Part shown: positions 1-15,000 of the stretch, in pieces
Layout: every line of letters begins with the position of its first letter
Numbering within the stretch: the first letter of the stretch is position 1
Source: an uncultured Selenomonadales bacterium
GTDB taxonomy: Bacteria; Bacillota; Negativicutes; Selenomonadales; Selenomonadaceae
Reading direction: 5' to 3'
Assembly (NCBI GenBank): GCA_900315155.1
Contig: OMYB01000009.1
Span: 1-64,000, forward strand
DNA: 64,000 nt
The notes under the pieces: model-generated
Told to the model about the DNA's origin: nothing
Seen by the model: only the letters and a program-made list of their open reading frames with translations
Databases searched by the model: none
Translations under genes and position numbers: made by a program

Positions 1-1
1 A

Positions 2-148
2 ATTATACACGCTTGTACACGGCAACACAAGGGAGCAAAAACCACGAGGCTGGCCAAAAGCAGAGAGCAACTCGGAGACATTGGAAGTTAGCGGCTACAG
101 GATAGCCTCCAGAAAATCCTTGCGGTGCGTGGTTTCTTGGGTAGCCAA
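2..148 (-). pseudogene. Possible 5' end of a transposase-like gene with an in-frame amber codon
   Basis: Read on the minus strand, an extended -10 (TGCTATAAT) is followed by a GGGAGG ribosome site and a TTG start at 148. The frame gives MATQETTHRKDFLEAIL, then a TAG at 97-95, then continues open to the window edge (PLTSNVSELLSAFGQPRG...). The peptide on both sides of the stop looks like coding sequence, so I read this as one gene broken by a stop codon, or a suppressed one. The style recalls transposase N-termini, but I cannot name a family and the rest lies outside the window. Confidence 0.3.
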
Positions 149-295
149 AGTCTCTACCTCCCTAAATTATAGCATAATTCGAGCCTGTGATACATTTGAA
201 TTTTAAAATAGTTTGCCTGAGGGAATCGTTTGTATATATTGACTATATCACGGACAAAATTGCGTGTCAAGAGGATTCTTTCCCTTTAGAAAAGG

Positions 296-455
296 GACGA
301 CCCTCTCCGCCTCGCTGGCGCTCGGCACCTCCCCCATGGGGGAGGCTGGGTGGGTGCCAGTCTGAGGCGCCAAGTGCCTGCGCACCACGGCGGGGTGACG
401 ACCCTCTCTGCCTCGCTGGCGCTCGGCACCTCCCCCATGGGGGAGGCTTGGGTGG
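296..455. repeat. Two copies of a dispersed palindromic repeat (core A)
   Basis: Copies at about 296-354 and 391-455 share the core GACGACCCTCTCCGCCTCGC, then a CTCGGCAC segment and a palindrome CCTCCCCCATGGGGGAGG. The same core recurs at about 1628, 2074, 2700, 3707 and, in reverse orientation, 14011. The copies lie inside an open frame that ends in the AraC-like remnant, but the repeat translation (Pro/Arg/Gly-rich) is not protein-like. Confidence 0.75.
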
Positions 456-486
456 TGCCAGTCTGGGGATGTGCCTGCGGATGCCC

Positions 487-618
487 ATGGGAGTCGATGT
501 CTTTTTGAAAGAAATCAGCATCACCGTCGGCCTGAGCAGTGCCAACTACATCGCGAGGACCTTTCGTCAAGTCGAAGGCATGAGCCAGAGAGAATACCAA
601 AAAATGGTGAGGGAATGA
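487..618 (+). pseudogene. Remnant of an AraC-family regulator C-terminus
   Basis: The last ~40 codons read ...ISITVGLSSANYIARTFR and then QVEGMSQREYQKMVRE, which matches the second helix-turn-helix of AraC-family regulators (consensus style: VGFSDPNYFSRVFKK then GMSPSEYR). Upstream the frame runs into the dispersed repeat, so the sensory domain and the first helix-turn-helix are gone. No ribosome site precedes it. I treat it as a dead 3' fragment, with repeats sitting at the breakpoint. Confidence 0.55.
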
Positions 619-679
619 TTACTCGTATTGCATTTTTGTCCTATTGAAATATACTGCAACTTGTGTTATGCTAAAATCA

Positions 680-725
680 TTGACAGGATAACATGATTTT
701 ACTATAATTAACCATAAGGTTAATT
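680..725 (+). promoter_or_regulatory. Promoter and palindromic operator of the higB-higA-like operon
   Basis: TTGACA (680-685), a 17-bp spacer and TATAAT (703-708) form a consensus promoter. An inverted repeat AATTAACC-ATAA-GGTTAATT (706-725) overlaps the -10 and the start site. That is the expected place for an autorepressing antitoxin to bind, here presumably the HigA-like protein encoded downstream. Confidence 0.75.
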
Positions 726-741
726 CAAGGGGCTGTATCGT

Positions 742-1080
742 TTGCAAATCACTTATGCGAATACGAAAGTGGAAAAATATTTCTCGGATTACAACAGGCT
801 CCAACGGAAACTGCCTTTTGCCTGGGTTCGTAGTATCAAGAAGTTCATGAACTACCTGAAAGCTGCGGAATGCTTTGGTGATTTCCTGCAGTTGGGACTG
901 GGTCGCCCGGAGCAGCTGGAGGGGACTCAGCGCATCCGGTATTCTTTACGTATTTCGGCGAATGCAAGACTTATTCTTGAGCCGGATGCCACGGAGGAGA
1001 CCGTGATGATTTGTACGGAAGTGGAAGTAGAGGGAGTGGTGGATTATCATGGCGACAAAGACAATTGGTTTATCCCCTGA
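742..1080 (+). CDS. higB: HigB-like toxin (RelE/ParE superfamily mRNA interferase)
   Basis: The 112-residue protein has the build of the HigB/plasmid-killer branch of RelE toxins: short, basic N-terminal helices (VEKYFSDYNRLQRKLP), a strand region around LEGTQRIRYSLRISANARLI and a C-terminal strand VMICTEVEVEGVVDYH. Family members cut mRNA on the ribosome and are blocked by HigA. The start is a TTG preceded by AAGGGG. The gene overlaps the following antitoxin by 32 bp, toxin first, which is the hig order. Function is inferred from family resemblance and gene order. Confidence 0.75.
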   Translation: MQITYANTKVEKYFSDYNRLQRKLPFAWVRSIKKFMNYLKAAECFGDFLQLGLGRPEQLEGTQRIRYSLRISANARLILEPDATEETVMICTEVEVEGVVDYHGDKDNWFIP

Positions 1081-1489
1081 GCTGATCATTCATCCCGGCG
1101 AGACGATCGCGGATCTGTTGGAGGCTCGCGGCATGACGCAGCAGGAACTTGCCGTGCGGACTGGGACGACACCGGCGTTTATCAGCAGCGTCATTCACGG
1201 GAAAAAGGGTATATCCGGGAAGTTTGCCTATGCCCTGGAGTGTGCTTTTGGTGTGCCCAAAACGTTCTGGCTTAACCTGCAGGCTAACTATGAGGCGGAG
1301 CTGCTCGACGCGCGGGAACATGCTACCATCACATCGGAGGAGAAGAATGTCGTGCACGGCATGCAGAACATGATCCAGGAGCTGCGCGCAAAAGGCACCC
1401 TTGCGCCGGACCAGCAGGATGAAGACGCGATCCCTTTCCTGCGTCGGAGATTCCACGTCAGCAACCTGGCATACCTCAGCATGCTCTAG
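1049..1489 (+). CDS. higA: HigA-like XRE-family antitoxin, probably C-terminally short
   Basis: The 146-residue protein carries an XRE helix-turn-helix at about residues 13-70 (HPGETIADLLEARGMTQQEL, then PAFISSVIHGKKGIS) with the HigA-type ending FWLNLQANYEAEL. Larger relatives of about 360 residues continue beyond a LRRFFGVSNL-like motif. Here that motif is present (LRRRFHVSNLAYLSML), but the protein stops straight after it, so the C-terminal part of the long form has probably been lost. The toxin-neutralising and DNA-binding parts remain. It likely represses the operon through the palindrome at 706-725. Confidence 0.75.
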   Translation: MATKTIGLSPELIIHPGETIADLLEARGMTQQELAVRTGTTPAFISSVIHGKKGISGKFAYALECAFGVPKTFWLNLQANYEAELLDAREHATITSEEKNVVHGMQNMIQELRAKGTLAPDQQDEDAIPFLRRRFHVSNLAYLSML

Positions 1490-1587
1490 TAAGAGGCAGT
1501 CACAATAAAGGTGGCTCGCATGCGTGCAGGCGGGGCAGTGAGGAACATACCAATGTCAGGTGCCCGTGCGAGCGGTACGGAGCGGGG

Positions 1588-1695
1588 AGACCCCCTCAGT
1601 CGCTGACGCGACAGCTCTCCGGCGGGGTGACGACCCTCTCCGCCTCGCTGGCGCTCGGCACCTCCCCCATAGGGGAGGCTGGGTTGGTGGCAGTT
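1588..1695. repeat. Dispersed palindromic repeat, composite B+A copy
   Basis: Part B (CCCCCTCAGTCGCTGACGCG ... AGCTCTCCGG, containing the GTCGC-TGAC-GCGAC palindrome) is followed by core A ending in CCTCCCCCATAGGGGAGG. It is nearly identical to the copy at 2031-2140. The two copies, together with the toxin/small-RNA units that follow them, make a ~450-bp tandem duplication. Confidence 0.8.
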
Positions 1696-1752
1696 TGGGG
1701 ATGTGCCTGCGGACGCCCGTGGGAGCCGATGCCTTTGATGTGTCATTTCTGC

Positions 1753-1866
1753 TTAAAAAAAACCACCTGCCGAAGCAGGTGGCTGCCGTGACGAGGTAGT
1801 GAGGCTGGCAAGGTGACAGGTCAAGCCTGCCGCGACAGACACGAGATACGAAGTGAATAGTGTCAT
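1753..1866 (-). CDS. Small hydrophobic toxin-like peptide, copy 1 (type I-like)
   Basis: The 37-residue frame starts MTLFTSYLVSVAAGLTCHLA and then runs SLTTSSRQPPASAGGFF. The first 20 residues form one short hydrophobic segment, as in type I toxin peptides of the Fst/Ldr kind. The SD is AAAGGAGGTG (complement of 1874-1883). Compared with copy 2 (2248-2316), seven bases (TGCAAGT in mRNA sense) are missing after ...CACCTTGCC. This removes the Cys-Lys-stop ending and lets the frame run on through the transcription terminator. The peptide may therefore be altered or inactive. The toxin role is inferred from size, hydrophobicity, tight leader structure and the matching divergent small RNA. Confidence 0.6.
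   Translation of the reverse strand: MTLFTSYLVSVAAGLTCHLASLTTSSRQPPASAGGFF
1763..1782 (-). terminator. Intrinsic terminator of toxin-like gene copy 1
   Basis: In minus-strand sense CCACCTGC-TTCG-GCAGGTGG is followed by eight T. The perfect 8-bp stem with a TTCG tetraloop closes a transcript of about 150 nt. The toxin reading frame of this copy passes through it and ends in the T run. Confidence 0.85.
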
Positions 1867-1872
1867 ACGTAT

Positions 1873-1892
1873 ACACCTCCTTTCGGCGGTGT
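1873..1892 (-). promoter_or_regulatory. SD-sequestering hairpin with GAAA loop in toxin mRNA 1
   Basis: In mRNA sense, ACACCGCC-GAAA-GGAGGUGU folds into an 8-bp stem with one G.A mismatch and a GNRA tetraloop. The 3' arm is the Shine-Dalgarno sequence itself, so the folded mRNA should be translated poorly. The same 20 bases recur unchanged in copy 2. Confidence 0.7.
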
Positions 1893-1906
1893 ACCGCAAC
1901 GTGTTT

Positions 1907-1950
1907 AGTATAGCAAATTTCTTGACGCAAAGGCAAGTTGGACGTATAAT
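1907..1950. promoter_or_regulatory. Overlapping divergent promoters, unit 1
   Basis: Plus strand: TTGACG (1922-1927), 17-bp spacer, TATAAT (1945-1950) drives the small RNA. Minus strand: TTGCCT (1936-1931), 18-bp spacer, extended -10 TGC-TATACT (TATACT at 1912-1907) drives the toxin mRNA. The two polymerase footprints overlap, so the promoters should compete. Confidence 0.8.
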
Positions 1951-1956
1951 ATAAAT

Positions 1957-2014
1957 GACAAAGAAGTGAATATGTTGTCATGCGAGCCGTGGGAGTAGTG
2001 ACCCCACGGTTTTT
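1957..2014 (+). ncRNA. Small antitoxin-like RNA, copy 1
   Basis: A ~58-nt transcript is predicted from the consensus promoter at 1922-1950 to a terminator CCGTGGG...CCCACGG plus T5 (1987-2014). Its 5' part folds as ATGACAA/TTGTCAT with a 13-nt loop AGAAGTGAATATG. Ten bases of that region (GAAGTGAATA, 1963-1972) are identical to the antisense of toxin codons 3-6 (1850-1859), and TGTCAT (1976-1981) is identical to the antisense of the start codon and next codon (1861-1866). It can therefore pair with the toxin start region in trans. There is no reading frame of note. Confidence 0.7.
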
Positions 2015-2030
2015 GTGTATTTCAACGGGG

Positions 2031-2140
2031 GGACCCCCTCAGTCGCTGACGCGACAGCTCTCCGGTGGGGGTGACGACCCTCTCCGCCTCGCTGGCGCTC
2101 GGCACCTCCCCCATAGGGGAGGCTGGGTGGTGCCAGTCTG
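2031..2140. repeat. Dispersed palindromic repeat, composite B+A copy
   Basis: Second copy of the B+A composite, almost base for base the copy at 1588-1695. It is followed, as there, by a stretch ending in the toxin terminator. It marks the tandem duplication boundary. Confidence 0.8.
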
Positions 2141-2205
2141 AGGATGTGCTTGCGGACGCCCGTGGGAGCCGATGCCTTTGATGTGTCATTTCTGCTTAAA
2201 AAAAA

Positions 2206-2225
2206 CCACCTGCCGAAGCAGGTGG
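2206..2225 (-). terminator. Intrinsic terminator of toxin-like gene copy 2
   Basis: The same perfect stem-loop (CCACCTGC-TTCG-GCAGGTGG, then T8 in minus-strand sense) as in copy 1. Here it lies 22 bp beyond the toxin stop codon, the expected arrangement. Confidence 0.85.
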
Positions 2226-2247
2226 CTGCCGTGACGAGGTAGTGAGG

Positions 2248-2316
2248 CTACTTGCAGGCAAGGTGACAAGTCAGGCCTGCCAGAACAGACACGAAGTAGG
2301 AACCGAGTAAAGTCAT
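2248..2316 (-). CDS. Small hydrophobic toxin-like peptide, copy 2 (type I-like)
   Basis: This 22-residue peptide, MTLLGSYFVSVLAGLTCHLA then CK, is a single hydrophobic segment with a C-terminal lysine. It probably inserts in the membrane and depolarises it, as Fst/Ldr-type toxins do, but this is inference from form. Start ATG at 2316-2314 follows AAAGGAGGTG. The nucleotide differences from copy 1 are concentrated in codons 3-7, exactly where the divergent small RNA would pair, while leader hairpin and terminator are unchanged. I judge this copy the intact one. Confidence 0.65.
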   Translation of the reverse strand: MTLLGSYFVSVLAGLTCHLACK

Positions 2317-2322
2317 ACGAAA

Positions 2323-2342
2323 ACACCTCCTTTCGGCGGTGT
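2323..2342 (-). promoter_or_regulatory. SD-sequestering hairpin with GAAA loop in toxin mRNA 2
   Basis: Identical to the hairpin at 1873-1892: 8-bp stem, one G.A mismatch, GNRA loop, with the Shine-Dalgarno in the 3' arm. Confidence 0.7.
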
Positions 2343-2356
2343 ACCGCAACGACTTT

Positions 2357-2400
2357 AGTATATCAAAATTCTTGACGAAAAAGCAAGGCAGACGTATAAT
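2357..2400. promoter_or_regulatory. Overlapping divergent promoters, unit 2
   Basis: Plus strand: TTGACG (2372-2377), 17-bp spacer, TATAAT (2395-2400). Minus strand: TTGCTT (2386-2381), 18-bp spacer, extended -10 TGA-TATACT (TATACT at 2362-2357). Same geometry as unit 1 although the intervening bases differ, so the arrangement is kept by selection or is recent. Confidence 0.8.
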
Positions 2401-2406
2401 ATACAT

Positions 2407-2466
2407 GACAAGGAAACGAGTATTCAAGTCATGCGAGCCGTGGGGAGTAGTGACCCCACGGTTTTT
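2407..2466 (+). ncRNA. Small antitoxin-like RNA, copy 2
   Basis: A ~60-nt transcript is predicted, ending at the perfect terminator CCGTGGGG-AGTAGTGA-CCCCACGG plus T6. A 5' stem CATGAC/GTCATG presents a loop with GGAAACGAGTA (2412-2422). This matches the antisense of toxin 2 codons 3-6 (2299-2309) at 10 of 11 positions, and AAGTCAT (2426-2432) matches the antisense of its start codon region (2310-2316). It does not match copy 1's toxin, so each RNA suits its own toxin. Confidence 0.7.
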
Positions 2467-2573
2467 TGTTTGCTCCCTCGAACAGGAAGCCAAGGTCTTT
2501 GCCACATTCCCCTCGTGTGGATGGCGTGGAGAGCCGTGGAGAGAGTGGCTCGCGGGGGCGTCCGGAGGCACAT

Positions 2574-2716
2574 CCTCAGTCAGCTGCGCTGACAGCTCCT
2601 TCAGAGAAGGAGCCAGGGGCGAGGCTGACGGCGGGCAGGAGGTGAGCCGCGAACGGGAAGACCCCCTCAGTCGCTGACGCGACAGATCTCCGGTGGGGAG
2701 ACGACCCTCTCCGCTT
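2574..2716. repeat. Variant and degraded copies of the dispersed repeat
   Basis: A variant (2574-2614, CCTCAGTCAGCTGCGCTGAC then AGCTCCTTCAGAGAAGGAGC) and a B+A piece (2660-2716) sit close together. The second piece truncates the flippase remnant that follows on the minus strand. Between 2467 and 2574 I see nothing recognisable. Confidence 0.6.
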
Positions 2717-2926
2717 ATTGTAGAGGCTTTGGATGAGAAAAGGCGGGAGGATGAGGCCGTAGATGCCCCATCCGGCGCGGAGGGCGATCCAGGCGGCGCA
2801 TGTGCCTGCCAGCCCGGAGAGGATGAAGGCGCGCGTATAGGGCAGCTGGTTGGTCGTGGCGATGAGGCAGGCCCAGGGCTCAAGCAGGGCATCAAAGAAG
2901 GCATCAGGAATAGGATCCAGGCGCCC
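2711..2926 (-). pseudogene. C-terminal remnant of a polysaccharide flippase-like membrane protein
   Basis: On the minus strand an open stretch of about 70 codons reads DPIPDAFFDALLEPWACLIA, TTNQLPYTRAFILSGLAGTC, AAWIALRAGWGIYGLILPPF, LIQSLYNKR. Two hydrophobic segments with Gly/Trp pairs are typical of the C-terminal end of Wzx/MATE-like polysaccharide exporters. A stop (2929-2927) precedes it and a dispersed repeat follows, so both ends are cut. It suits the neighbouring rhamnose and galactofuranose genes: this was probably the edge of a surface-glycan locus. The flippase call is from sequence style only. Confidence 0.5.
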
Positions 2927-2974
2927 TCAACGGATAGGTCTGCCGAGATTCTTGCAACATGAGCTTTTTCATGA

Positions 2975-3003
2975 TTGACAAATGGGTACTGTGATGGTAT
3001 ATT
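2975..3003 (+). promoter_or_regulatory. Promoter of the toxI-toxN-like operon
   Basis: TTGACA (2975-2980), 17-bp spacer, TATATT (2998-3003). Transcription would start about 3010, just before the first 35-bp repeat. Confidence 0.85.
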
Positions 3004-3015
3004 AAATATAGATAA

Positions 3016-3120
3016 TGAACGGTGCCTGCGACCGAAACGGCAGACTTTAATGAACGGTGCCTGCGACCGGGATGGCAGACTTTAATGAACGGTGCCTGCG
3101 ACCGTGACGGCAGACCTTAA
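3016..3120 (+). ncRNA. toxI: ToxI-like RNA antitoxin: three 35-nt tandem repeats
   Basis: Three contiguous 35-bp units (3016-3050, 3051-3085, 3086-3120) share TGAACGGTGCCTGCGACCG, two variable bases, then A(C/T)GGCAGAC(T/C)TTAA. In type III toxin-antitoxin systems such an RNA is cut by its toxin into single units that wrap around and inhibit it. Each unit can form an H-type pseudoknot: CGGU pairs with ACCG, and the GCC just after CGGU pairs with the GGC downstream. The unit-to-unit differences fall outside both stems. Position before a hairpin and a ToxN-like gene makes this call strong. Confidence 0.85.
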
Positions 3121-3154
3121 TAATAGGCGGGTGGCTCGTGCCATTCGCCTATTA
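3121..3154 (+). terminator. Hairpin between toxI repeats and toxN
   Basis: TAATAGGCG (3121-3129) pairs with CGCCTATTA (3146-3154), and inside it TGGC pairs with GCCA. In ToxIN loci a leaky terminator at this place sets a high RNA-to-toxin ratio. The T run after it is weak, which suits partial read-through. Confidence 0.75.
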
Positions 3155-3169
3155 TATTGTGGAGGTTGT

Positions 3170-3655
3170 ATGCTGAATTTTTTCTATGTTGACAAGCAGT
3201 ATATCGAGTATTTGAAGCGGTGGGAAAGCAAGATACCCAACATCGATTACGATTCGCATAAGAAGTTTGTCTGTGGTGCGCTGATACAGTTGGCGGGGAT
3301 GGCATATTATGCGCCGGTGTCCCACTACAAAAAGCCGAACGCGTCTACTTTTCTGATATATGATGGGGATAAAGCGATTTCGTCGATCCGGCTGAATTTC
3401 ATGTTCCCCGTGCTCCGCGATACGATTCAAAAGGTGGATTTTCATCGACTGCAGCATGAGGATCCACGGTATGCCTCCCTGGTACGCAAGGAGTTGGCTT
3501 ACTGCCGCGATCATGTGGATGCGCTGCAGCGGCAGGCCCAGAAGGTGTACCGCCGCGGCTCCAATCCACAGGATTTCTTGTTCCAGTTCTGTTGTGATTT
3601 CCAGCTGCTGCAGACCAAGGCAGAGGAGTATCAAAACAAATGGCTGCAAGGGTGA
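3170..3655 (+). CDS. toxN: ToxN/AbiQ-like type III toxin (endoribonuclease)
   Basis: The 161-residue protein resembles ToxN/AbiQ: N-terminal MLNFFYVDKQYIEYLKRWES then KIPN, the core QLAGMAYYAPVSHYKKPN and the strand SSIRLNFMFPV, followed by a helical C-terminus. ToxN cuts cellular RNA and its own repeat RNA, and many members give phage resistance by abortive infection. The start ATG at 3170 is chosen because GGAGG lies 5 bases upstream and the repeats and hairpin end before it; an in-frame upstream ATG lies inside the repeats and is unlikely. Length fits the family (about 165-175 residues). Confidence 0.85.
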   Translation: MLNFFYVDKQYIEYLKRWESKIPNIDYDSHKKFVCGALIQLAGMAYYAPVSHYKKPNASTFLIYDGDKAISSIRLNFMFPVLRDTIQKVDFHRLQHEDPRYASLVRKELAYCRDHVDALQRQAQKVYRRGSNPQDFLFQFCCDFQLLQTKAEEYQNKWLQG

Positions 3656-3706
3656 GGAATAGCCGGGAAATCGTCATCCACCCAATCGCCACCCCCCGGA
3701 CGTGGG

Positions 3707-3766
3707 GTGACGACCCTCTCCGCCTCGCTGCGCTCGGCACCTCCCCCATAGGGGAGGCTGGGGGAA
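3707..3766. repeat. Dispersed palindromic repeat, core A copy
   Basis: GGGGTGACGACCCTCTCCGC then CTCGCTGCGCTCGGCACC and CTCCCCCATAGGGGAGG. It lies between toxN and the rmlA promoter, only a few bases upstream of the -35. Confidence 0.8.
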
Positions 3767-3771
3767 TGCCG

Positions 3772-3800
3772 TTGACACGCGGGTGCCGATTCGCTATGAT
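3772..3800 (+). promoter_or_regulatory. Promoter of rmlA
   Basis: TTGACA (3772-3777), 17-bp spacer, TATGAT (3795-3800), followed by AGGAGGGAGA and the rmlA ATG. Confidence 0.8.
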
Positions 3801-3827
3801 GGTAAGAGATAGATTAGGAGGGAGAAT

Positions 3828-4706
3828 ATGAGTAATATAAGGAAGGGAATCATTCTTGCGGGCGGGTCGGGGACGCGGTTGTATCCGCTGACGCGCGTGG
3901 TTTCGAAGCAGCTCATGCCGGTGTATGATAAGCCGATGATTTATTATCCGCTGAGCACGCTGATGCTCGCTGGCATCAACGATATCCTGGTGATCACGAC
4001 GCCGGCGGACCGGGAGCTTTATCCGGCGCTGCTGGGCGACGGGTCGCAGCTGGGCATCCACATTTCGTACGCGGTCCAGCCGAGCCCGGACGGCCTCGCG
4101 CAGGCGTTCCTCATCGGCGAGGACTTCATCGCGGGCGAGGGGTGCGCGCTCGTGCTCGGGGATAACATTTTCTACGGGTCCGATCTCGCCGTCATGATGC
4201 AGCGGGCGGCGCAGCGGGCGTCGGGCGCAACGGTGTTTGCGTACTACGTGTCCGACCCGGAGCGCTACGGCGTCGTGGAGTTCGACCGGGAGGGCCGGGC
4301 GCTTTCGCTCGAGGAAAAGCCGGCGCAGCCGAAGTCGAACTACGCGGTCACGGGACTGTATTTCTACGACCGGGACATCGTCGATATCGCGAAGAGCATC
4401 AAGCCCTCGGCGCGCGGCGAGCTCGAGATCACGGATGTGAACAAAGTGTACCTCGGGCGCGGCACGCTGAACGTCGAGAAGATGCGCCGCGGGTTTGCGT
4501 GGCTCGATACGGGGACGCATGAAAGCCTGCTGCAGGCCGGGCAGTTCGTCCAGACCATCCAGGCACGGCAGGGGCTGAAAATCGCCTGCCTCGAGGAAAT
4601 CGCGTACCGCATGGGTTACATCGACCGGGCGCAGGTCGAAAAGCTCGCGCAGCCGCTGCTGAAGAATGACTACGGGAAATACCTCATGAGAATGATCGAA
4701 GAATAA
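3828..4706 (+). CDS. rmlA: Glucose-1-phosphate thymidylyltransferase
   Basis: This 292-residue enzyme makes dTDP-glucose from dTTP and glucose-1-phosphate, the first step to dTDP-L-rhamnose. The nucleotide-binding signature [11 protein letters not shown] is at residues 12-22, followed by [23 protein letters not shown] and [13 protein letters not shown] are also typical of RmlA. Length is normal for the short RmlA form. rmlC and glf follow on the same strand; rmlB and rmlD are not in this window, so they must lie elsewhere or be missing. Confidence 0.95.
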
Positions 4707-4720
4707 GTGCGAGGCTGCCG

Positions 4721-4840
4721 GAACAGGACCTCCTCAGTCGCTGGCGCGACAGCTCTCCGGTGTATGGCAGGCACTAAACGCTAAAGCGCCAAGTGCCTGC
4801 GCACCCCAATGGGGGGAGCCATACGCAACATCCGTCTGCG
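4721..4840. repeat. ~120-bp dispersed repeat, inverted partner of 9784-9905
   Basis: Starts GAACAGGACCTCCTCAGTCG, contains a palindromic arm (GCACTAAACGCTAAAGCGCC, AAGTGCC) and CCCCAATGGGGGGAGC, and ends CCGTCTGCG. The reverse complement occurs at 9784-9905 with few changes. The copy fills the rmlA-rmlC gap. Confidence 0.8.
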
Positions 4841-9783: not shown

Positions 9784-9905
9784 GCAGACGGATGATGCGT
9801 TAGGCTCCCCCCGTTGGGGTGCGCAGGCACTTGGCGCTTTAGCGGTTAGTGCCTGCCATACACCGGAGAGCTGGCTCGCGAAGCGAGACTGAGAGGGTCC
9901 TGTTC
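9784..9905. repeat. ~120-bp dispersed repeat, inverted partner of 4721-4840
   Basis: The reverse complement of 4721-4840 (ends CGCAGACGG and GTCCTGTTC) with small changes, for example GCGAAGC replacing the middle of the B palindrome. It sits just upstream of the ABC operon and leaves room for little else between 9777 and 9938; I see no clear promoter there. Confidence 0.8.
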
Positions 9906-13667: not shown

Positions 13668-13735
13668 CCCCGAAACAGGACCTCCTCAGTCGCGCAAGCG
13701 CGACAGCTCCCCCAACGGGGGGAGCCTTACTCAGG
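13668..13735. repeat. Dispersed repeat, part B variant with CCCCCAACGGGGGG stem
   Basis: AACAGGACCTCCTCAGTCGC, then GCAAGCGCGACAGC and CTCCCCCAACGGGGGGAGC. Same family as 4721-4840 in the plus orientation, lacking the central arm. Confidence 0.75.
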
Positions 13736-13785: not shown

Positions 13786-15000
13786 TTAGAGGACGCGGTG
13801 AAGTTCGGTGGCGGTGGTGAGGTTGGCGGCGATTTTGGCGCGGGCGTCGGTCTCGAGGGTGGGGAGACCGGCGGCGCATTGGATGTCGCGGATGGCGCTG
13901 GTGGGGGCGCCGTCGAGGATGGCCTGGCGGATGGCGGGCGTCACGGGCAGGATCTCATGCAGCGCGATGCGCCCCGCGTATCCCGTCCCGTGGCATGTCT
14001 CGCAGCCAATGCCTCCCCCCGTTGGGGGAGGTGCCGAGCGATAGCGAGGCGGAGAGGGTCTTGTTCCGGCAGCCTTCTCTCTACACTGTGGGCAGAGGCG
14101 GCGGACGAGCCTTTGGCTGACGATGCCGCGGAGCGTGGCGGCGAGGAGGTAGGGCGGGATGCCCATCTCGCGGAGGCGGGCAATGGCGGTGGCCGTGTCC
14201 TCCGTGTGGAGCGTCGTGAGCACGAGGTGCCCCGTGAGGGCGATGCGCACGGCCATTTCGGCGGTCTTTTCGTCGCGAATCTCGCCGAGGAGGATTTTCT
14301 CCGCGTCCTGGCGCAGGAGAGCGCGCAGGGCGACGGGGTAGGTGAGGCCCACGCGCTCGTTCATCTGGACCTGGCAGATGCCGGGCAGCTGGCGCTCGAC
14401 GGGGTCCTCGAGCGTGACGATGCTCGTGCCGGGGTCGGCGAGCTCGGCGATGGCGGCGTAGAGCGTCGTCGATTTGCCCGAGTTCATCGGCCCTGTGATG
14501 ATGACGAGGCCCGCACTGCCGTGGATGAGCGTGCGGAACAGGGCGAGGTTTTCGGGCGTGAAACCAAGCTCGTCGAGGGAGAGGAGGCGGTCGTCGCGGG
14601 CGAGGAAGCGGAGGACGAGGATTTCGCCGTGCGTGCCGGGGAGCGAGGAGACGCGGACGTCGACGGGCTCGCCACTGCCGAGGTGGGTGATGTGGCCGTC
14701 CTGCGGGAGCTGGTGCCCCGTGATGTCCATGCCAGCCATGACCTTGAGGCGCGCCGTGAGCGATGCGTGCAGGGCGATGGGCAGCGGCGGCAAAGGCTCG
14801 CGGAGCACGCCGTCGACGCGGTAGCGCAGGTGGACGGCCTCTGCCCTGGGCTCGATGTGGAGGTCGCTGGCGCCTAGCGTGGCGGCTGTCCCGAGCAGCT
14901 GGTCCACGAGCCGCACGAGTGCCGTGCCCGCCTGCGTGCGCCCCGCCTCGCGCAGCGCTTCGTCCACGAGAAAGGTAAACGCCTGGTTCTCTATCTTCAT
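13786..15000 (-). CDS. Orphan GspE/PulE/ComGA-like secretion ATPase
   Basis: The 404-residue ATPase has SDLHIEP, DGVLRE, Walker A GPMNSGKST (170-178), the Asp box VTLEDPVE, Walker B ILLGEIRDEKTA and the His box HLVLTTLHTED. It would power assembly of a type IV pilus, competence pseudopilus or type II secretion system. Four cysteines (303, 306, 333, 336) form the zinc site; between the two pairs lies a translated dispersed repeat (RPSPPRYRSAPPPTGGG). No pilC, pilT or pilin genes lie beside it. ATG at 15000 has AGGAGA upstream. The catalytic motifs look intact; whether it still works without neighbours is unknown. Confidence 0.85.
   Translation of the reverse strand: MKIENQAFTFLVDEALREAGRTQAGTALVRLVDQLLGTAATLGASDLHIEPRAEAVHLRYRVDGVLREPLPPLPIALHASLTARLKVMAGMDITGHQLPQDGHITHLGSGEPVDVRVSSLPGTHGEILVLRFLARDDRLLSLDELGFTPENLALFRTLIHGSAGLVIITGPMNSGKSTTLYAAIAELADPGTSIVTLEDPVERQLPGICQVQMNERVGLTYPVALRALLRQDAEKILLGEIRDEKTAEMAVRIALTGHLVLTTLHTEDTATAIARLREMGIPPYLLAATLRGIVSQRLVRRLCPQCREKAAGTRPSPPRYRSAPPPTGGGIGCETCHGTGYAGRIALHEILPVTPAIRQAILDGAPTSAIRDIQCAAGLPTLETDARAKIAANLTTATELHRVL
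14011..14074 (-). repeat. Dispersed repeat core A inserted in frame in the secretion ATPase gene
   Basis: In minus-strand sense GAACAAGACCCTCTCCGCCT, CGCTATCGCTCGGCACCTCC and CCCAACGGGGGGAGG. It adds about 20 codons (residues ~312-331) without breaking the frame, between the CxxC pairs of the zinc motif. Confidence 0.8.

Follow-up and report, generated by a model that had tools for sequence, protein, structure and literature searches.

The best-known protein-coding palindromic repeats are those of Rickettsia and of some REP-rich genomes. The Rickettsia palindromic elements (RPEs; Ogata et al. 2000, 2002, as summarised in PMC10969869) are about 150 bp long, occur in Alphaproteobacteria, and are described as each coding for a conserved peptide. 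The GTAG/CGTC-tagged REPs are short palindromes that are mostly intergenic, with some copies inside open reading frames (orfs) in many species; the CGTC-tagged REPs are reported to be without a dedicated transposase, and Bacillota is absent from the phyla listed there (PMC3733652). Members of the GspE/PilB family of ATPases carry the motif CX2C-X21-40-CX2C, with a spacer of 21 to 40 residues between two cysteine pairs, and V. cholerae EpsE requires the cysteines but accepts the spacer of a homologue in exchange for its own (PMC5061722).

The window, a 64,000-nucleotide stretch of contig OMYB01000009.1 from an uncultured Selenomonadales bacterium, contains a gene of this ATPase family in which a repeat copy is translated between the two cysteine pairs (Table 1). 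The predicted protein contains a T2SSE domain (Pfam, E = 2.3e-104). Of the NCBIfam models, it matches gspE at 4e-130 and pilB at 1e-116, with scores under the full-length cut-offs because the N-terminal part of the models is unmatched. By sequence it matches the solved structures of PilB, PilF and EpsE, and its predicted model matches their folds with E-values down to 2.1e-45 (Foldseek); its closest named relatives are proteins of Selenomonadaceae. The Walker A (GPMNSGKST), Asp (VTLEDPVE), Walker B (LLGEIRDE) and His (TGHLVLTTLHT) boxes are intact, and the T2SSE domain together with these four boxes and their invariant columns places the protein in the GspE/PilB family. All four motif cysteines are present, and their spacing, CX2C-X26-CX2C, fits CX2C-X21-40-CX2C. 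The sequence-only reading was right that the frame and all of the catalytic motifs are kept.

Table 1. Positions in the window of the ATPase gene, its cysteine pairs, and copies of the palindromic repeat.
Feature	Position	Strand	Basis or remark
Repeat copy	299-347	+	Covariance model
Repeat copy	400-448	+	Covariance model
Repeat copy	1632-1680	+	Covariance model
Repeat copy	2076-2124	+	Covariance model
Repeat copy	3712-3759	+	Covariance model
Long variant, repeat split by second palindromic unit (CACTAA..AGTG at 4772-4795)	4727-4819	+	Covariance model
Long variant, repeat split by second palindromic unit (CACTAA..AGTG type) at 9828-9851	9804-9899	-	Covariance model
Intergenic repeat copy about 60 bp beyond the ATPase stop, opposite orientation	13679-13725	+	E = 2.8e-13
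GspE/PilB-type ATPase gene, 404 aa	13786-15000	-	Starts with ATG at 15000, preceded by the ribosome-binding site AGGAGA
CETC, second Cys pair, residues 333-336	13993-14004	-	Sequence reading
Two-hairpin repeat core in the ATPase gene, residues 314-330	14012-14060	-	Covariance model, E = 2.8e-12
Repeat copy footprint, encodes KAAGTRPSPPRYRSAPPPTGGG (residues 309-330)	14012-14076	-	DNA comparison; end approximate
CPQC, first Cys pair, residues 303-306	14083-14094	-	Sequence reading

The repeat is a dispersed, GC-rich, two-hairpin element with a core of about 50 nt, found mainly between genes and often in opposed pairs, and its consensus is GACCCTCTCMGYC-hairpin 1-CTCCCCCAnnGGGGGAGSC. The stem of hairpin 1 covaries: 85.6% of cells are paired, 34 are double-change cells, and the covariation score of 0.213 exceeds both the 0.103 of shuffles and the 0.02-0.09 of slid controls. 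At E <= 0.05 the covariance model has 56 matches in the genome of 2.49 Mb, or about 50 copies. Matches are present in 33 of the 80 other genomes searched, nearly all within Selenomonadaceae, where the distribution is patchy (at least 60-77 matches in some genera, none in others). No Rfam 15 family exceeds its gathering threshold on the repeat—the best, whalefall-1, scores 19.8 bits against a threshold of 37—and no account of it in Selenomonas or Negativicutes was found in the open-licence literature.

Copies are densely clustered in positions 1-4000 of the window (at 299, 400, 1589, 1632, 2032, 2076, 2569, 2660 and 3712), and similar clusters lie at 35-48 kb and 69-73 kb of contig C10. Nested within some copies is a second palindromic unit, CACTAAnCGCTnAAGCGCnnAGTG, which is found twice in the window (one occurrence on each strand; Table 1) against 0.02 expected by chance. 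Beyond the window it is present at loci L033, L262, L327, L331 and L335, and it also lies within coding inserts of a phosphomannomutase (genome G002) and of a PdxR regulator (G027).

The 26 residues between CPQC and CETC are REKAAGTRPSPPRYRSAPPPTGGGIG, and the proposal that this loop is translated repeat is well supported. The core scores 63.6 bits (E = 2.8e-12) against a covariance model of the genome's repeats that was built with the ATPase copy itself included, and in a plain DNA comparison copies elsewhere are 90-93% identical to it over 44-50 nt (E-values down to 1.7e-12); a chance match is ruled out by the covariance-model E-value and the DNA identity. The sequence-only reading had placed the repeat at 14011-14074, which is accurate within a few bases, and the footprint takes in an upstream GGCTGCCGGAACA that is common to some other copies. 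The same element does, as was also noted, occupy a nearby gap between genes just downstream of the ATPase gene. The suggestion that this gap copy offers a direct source for comparison is doubtful: it is only 77% identical to the ATPase copy over 57 nt, whereas the copy at C11:82671-82714 is 93% identical over 44 nt, and because the latter resembles the ATPase copy more closely the neighbouring copy is an unlikely direct source.

In most orthologues of the family the cysteine pairs are separated by about 24-31 residues of unrelated sequence, for example REAYTIPADSAEAQALGKDYQAGMKLWRARG; in the congeners G001 and G002 the spacer is 31 residues long, compared with 26 in the window ATPase, and a few orthologues, such as that of Mitsuokella oral taxon 131 (KGIG), have nearly none. 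Unrelated loops of equal length in orthologues are what the sequence-only reading had named as speaking against its claim, and a purely additive insert is not supported, as the orthologues hold native segments of similar length. The description of the repeat as inserted in the zinc motif stands insofar as an in-frame copy is there, and fails insofar as a native segment has been replaced and not just added to. The native segment of G001 is predicted to be an ordered strand-helix-strand unit (pLDDT about 95, AlphaFold), and residues 313-329 of the window ATPase are predicted to be disordered, with pLDDT of about 41 against a whole-model mean of 88.7, a low value that is partly expected because no other alignment row has the repeat peptide. 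Judged from these alignments, the repeat peptide, predicted to be disordered, stands in place of the native segment and is a replacement of some 25 native residues, not a simple addition, because the orthologues carry an unrelated and similarly long segment. An ancestor might alternatively have had an already shortened loop, such as that of L099.

We propose that a Selenomonadaceae palindromic repeat landed in this pilus/secretion ATPase gene and was kept because it was in frame at a tolerant site, a reading that we hold to be quite probable. The repeat, spread mainly between genes, would have entered a gene for a type IV pilus/type II secretion-type ATPase, with about 25 native codons lost at the same time or afterwards, and would have been retained since the frame reads through and the site is tolerant. 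The exchangeability of the EpsE spacer would be sufficient reason for that tolerance; by analogy, we infer that the repeat-made spacer is tolerated, and that the protein still works, since the spacer can be exchanged while the four cysteines hold zinc. The repeat would then behave like an RPE, as selfish DNA of which selection leaves mainly frame-preserving copies at tolerant intragenic sites.

How strongly the ATPase itself is constrained bears on this proposal. Over its first 303 codons, comparison with G001 and G002 gives dN of 0.24-0.25 and dS of 0.80-1.16 (dN/dS about 0.2-0.3), clearly indicative of purifying selection before the cysteine motif. Over the last 71 codons the corresponding values are dN 0.48-0.55 and dS 0.69-0.88 (dN/dS about 0.6-0.7), compared with dN 0.21, dS 0.92 and dN/dS 0.23 between G001 and G002; purifying selection is weaker after the motif, and the C-terminal constraint may be relaxed. 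All four motif cysteines are gone in congener G003, and the zinc domain may therefore be dispensable in the genus. The tetracysteine motif is lost and the frame open in the GspE/PilB orthologues L095 (of G003), L128 and L151.

These patterns could mean that constraint on the zinc domain has been relaxed in the genus and the ATPase is decaying, with the repeat a tolerated early lesion of no functional meaning. The loss of cysteines in G003, amino-acid change after the motif that is faster than between the congeners, the exchange of an ordered native subdomain for predicted disorder (AlphaFold), and the solitary position of the gene—it stands apart from the PilC-PilT locus on contig 20—are all in keeping with decay. 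We nonetheless consider it unlikely, as all of the motifs are intact, the orf (13786-15000, minus strand) runs through 404 codons with no stop or frameshift and with GC3 of 0.79, and dN/dS is well below 1 over the first 303 codons. The protein is, moreover, the sole full-length GspE/PilB-type protein among the matches listed in a genome that has PilT and PilC, and the gene is likewise solitary in congeners whose loops are intact. The further lesions of a pseudogene, raised earlier as a reservation, were not found on any of these counts (stop, frameshift, motifs or dN/dS), though the C-terminal part evolves fast.

The retention of an in-frame repeat at a tolerant site, as proposed for the ATPase, is paralleled in other genes. 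In HemW of the window genome NLRSAPPLGELSPTATEGVPPQGRP constitutes about 22-26 extra residues; in 22 of 23 orthologues the site holds just a few residues, and the HemW of G006 has its own longer stretch there, unrelated to the repeat peptide. Alignment makes the HemW repeat clearly a net addition. The phosphomannomutase of the window genome has GATTLSVACGDSSPRGGAK at the linker between domains I and II, also a net addition relative to orthologues; unlike in HemW and phosphomannomutase, a native segment is replaced in the ATPase. A partial, weakly scoring element lies in the IIB-IIC linker of a PTS EIIBC protein, and the C-terminus of TadA is made of element-encoded residues, both in the window genome. 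In G027, which belongs to another genus, elements are present in interdomain linkers of the PdxR regulator and of an RbbA-like tandem ABC protein. The phosphomannomutase linker bears repeats in two species, one in the window genome (G000) and two in congener G002 (L262), where one of the two elements is split by a further palindrome; the shared site suggests either an old common insertion or a hot spot.

The suggested search for the same peptide in other coding genes finds the element there in frame, in HemW, phosphomannomutase and others, and the peptides are unrelated. Repeats are translated in several frames and from either strand, giving such different peptides as RPSPPRYRSAPPPTGGG, TTLSVACGDSSPRGGAK and SAPPLGELSPTATEG, and there is therefore no conserved peptide. 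What the coding copies have in common is preservation of the frame at places that appear tolerant, and not a peptide. The in-frame share is biased, as the search was aimed at elements spanned by open frames and disrupting copies are therefore under-counted; a rough check for out-of-frame copies in genes gave no credible case among 34. The out-of-frame candidate C27:9755 looks spurious, as do many long orfs over other repeat copies, which are antisense or upstream of the true start.

These same sites bear on the idea that the repeat was recruited—that the ATPase gains a new property, such as binding or regulation, from the repeat's basic, Pro/Arg/Gly-rich peptide, and that the repeat is a ready-made source of linkers. 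Elements do recur at linkers and loops in several proteins, and the phosphomannomutase linker holds them in two species, but with unrelated peptides arising from several frames and either strand there is no conserved peptide to select. The hairpin stems, moreover, are still intact and therefore point to recent arrival. Recruitment is in our view distinctly improbable, and the tolerated, frame-preserving insertion remains the preferred reading.

A search for Y1_Tnp (PF01797) gave no matches in the window genome, in congeners G001-G003, or in the repeat-rich genomes G004, G009, G016, G027, G034 and G037, and was positive in five control genomes. Repeat-rich genomes of the family tend to be without Y1 transposases and Y1-rich ones without the repeat; in 49 family genomes the copy number is negatively correlated with the Y1 count (Spearman -0.37, p = 0.009, without correction for relatedness). 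A classical REP/RAYT arrangement, in which the repeat is moved by a genome-encoded Y1 tyrosine transposase related to those of IS200/IS605, would account for a palindromic, GC-rich, mainly intergenic and multi-copy element often found in opposed pairs. With no Y1 match in the window genome, its congeners or these repeat-rich genomes there is therefore no classical REP/RAYT pair in the present hosts, and both this absence, which rules against RAYT mobilisation there, and the negative correlation make the arrangement very improbable indeed. A stronger version of our proposal can be put forward tentatively, although we doubt it: a folded zinc subdomain would have been swapped for a disordered peptide with the cysteines kept and the motor functional, and the repeat would be a family-wide source of linkers spreading without Y1.

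The phenomenon of in-frame palindromic repeats is itself already known; new, as far as the searched open-licence papers show, are the phylum of the host, the fact that an ordered zinc segment is replaced, and a set of comparable coding sites. A repeat of a Bacillota family behaves alike in several unrelated proteins, with repeat-free orthologues for comparison, which allows insertion, replacement, and tandem growth at a single site to be set directly side by side. The window ATPase is a natural test of the claim that the zinc-cysteine spacer is exchangeable.

The EpsE CM domain (the GspE/PilB C-terminal metal-binding domain) and the window ATPase share the CX2C-spacer-CX2C arrangement, and the EpsE-type spacer is naturally variable; in EpsE-type cases it is native, however, whereas in the window ATPase it is translated repeat DNA. 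The parallel to Rickettsia insertion peptides drawn in the sequence-only reading is apt, with in-frame repeats in several unrelated proteins: the RPEs, as described in PMC10969869, and the Selenomonadaceae repeat are both dispersed palindromes with some copies in frame within unrelated protein genes, a likeness drawn from described behaviour and not from sequence. Compared with the RPEs as described there, the Selenomonadaceae repeat has a core of only about 50 nt, two hairpins, a Bacillota host, and peptides read from several frames and both strands. Like the intragenic REPs it is short and mostly between genes, with some copies within orfs, but those have one hairpin and the Selenomonadaceae repeat has two different adjacent ones. 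No constant unpaired GTAG or CGTC tag is present in the aligned core; GTGAC-GACC (CGTC on the other strand) lies upstream of some copies and is absent from others. With intergenic copies and in-frame copies in unrelated genes, the features by which the class is recognized, the repeat is best placed among the protein-coding palindromic repeats in the broad sense, as a new member from the Bacillota, and not classed as an RPE or RAYT-REP proper.
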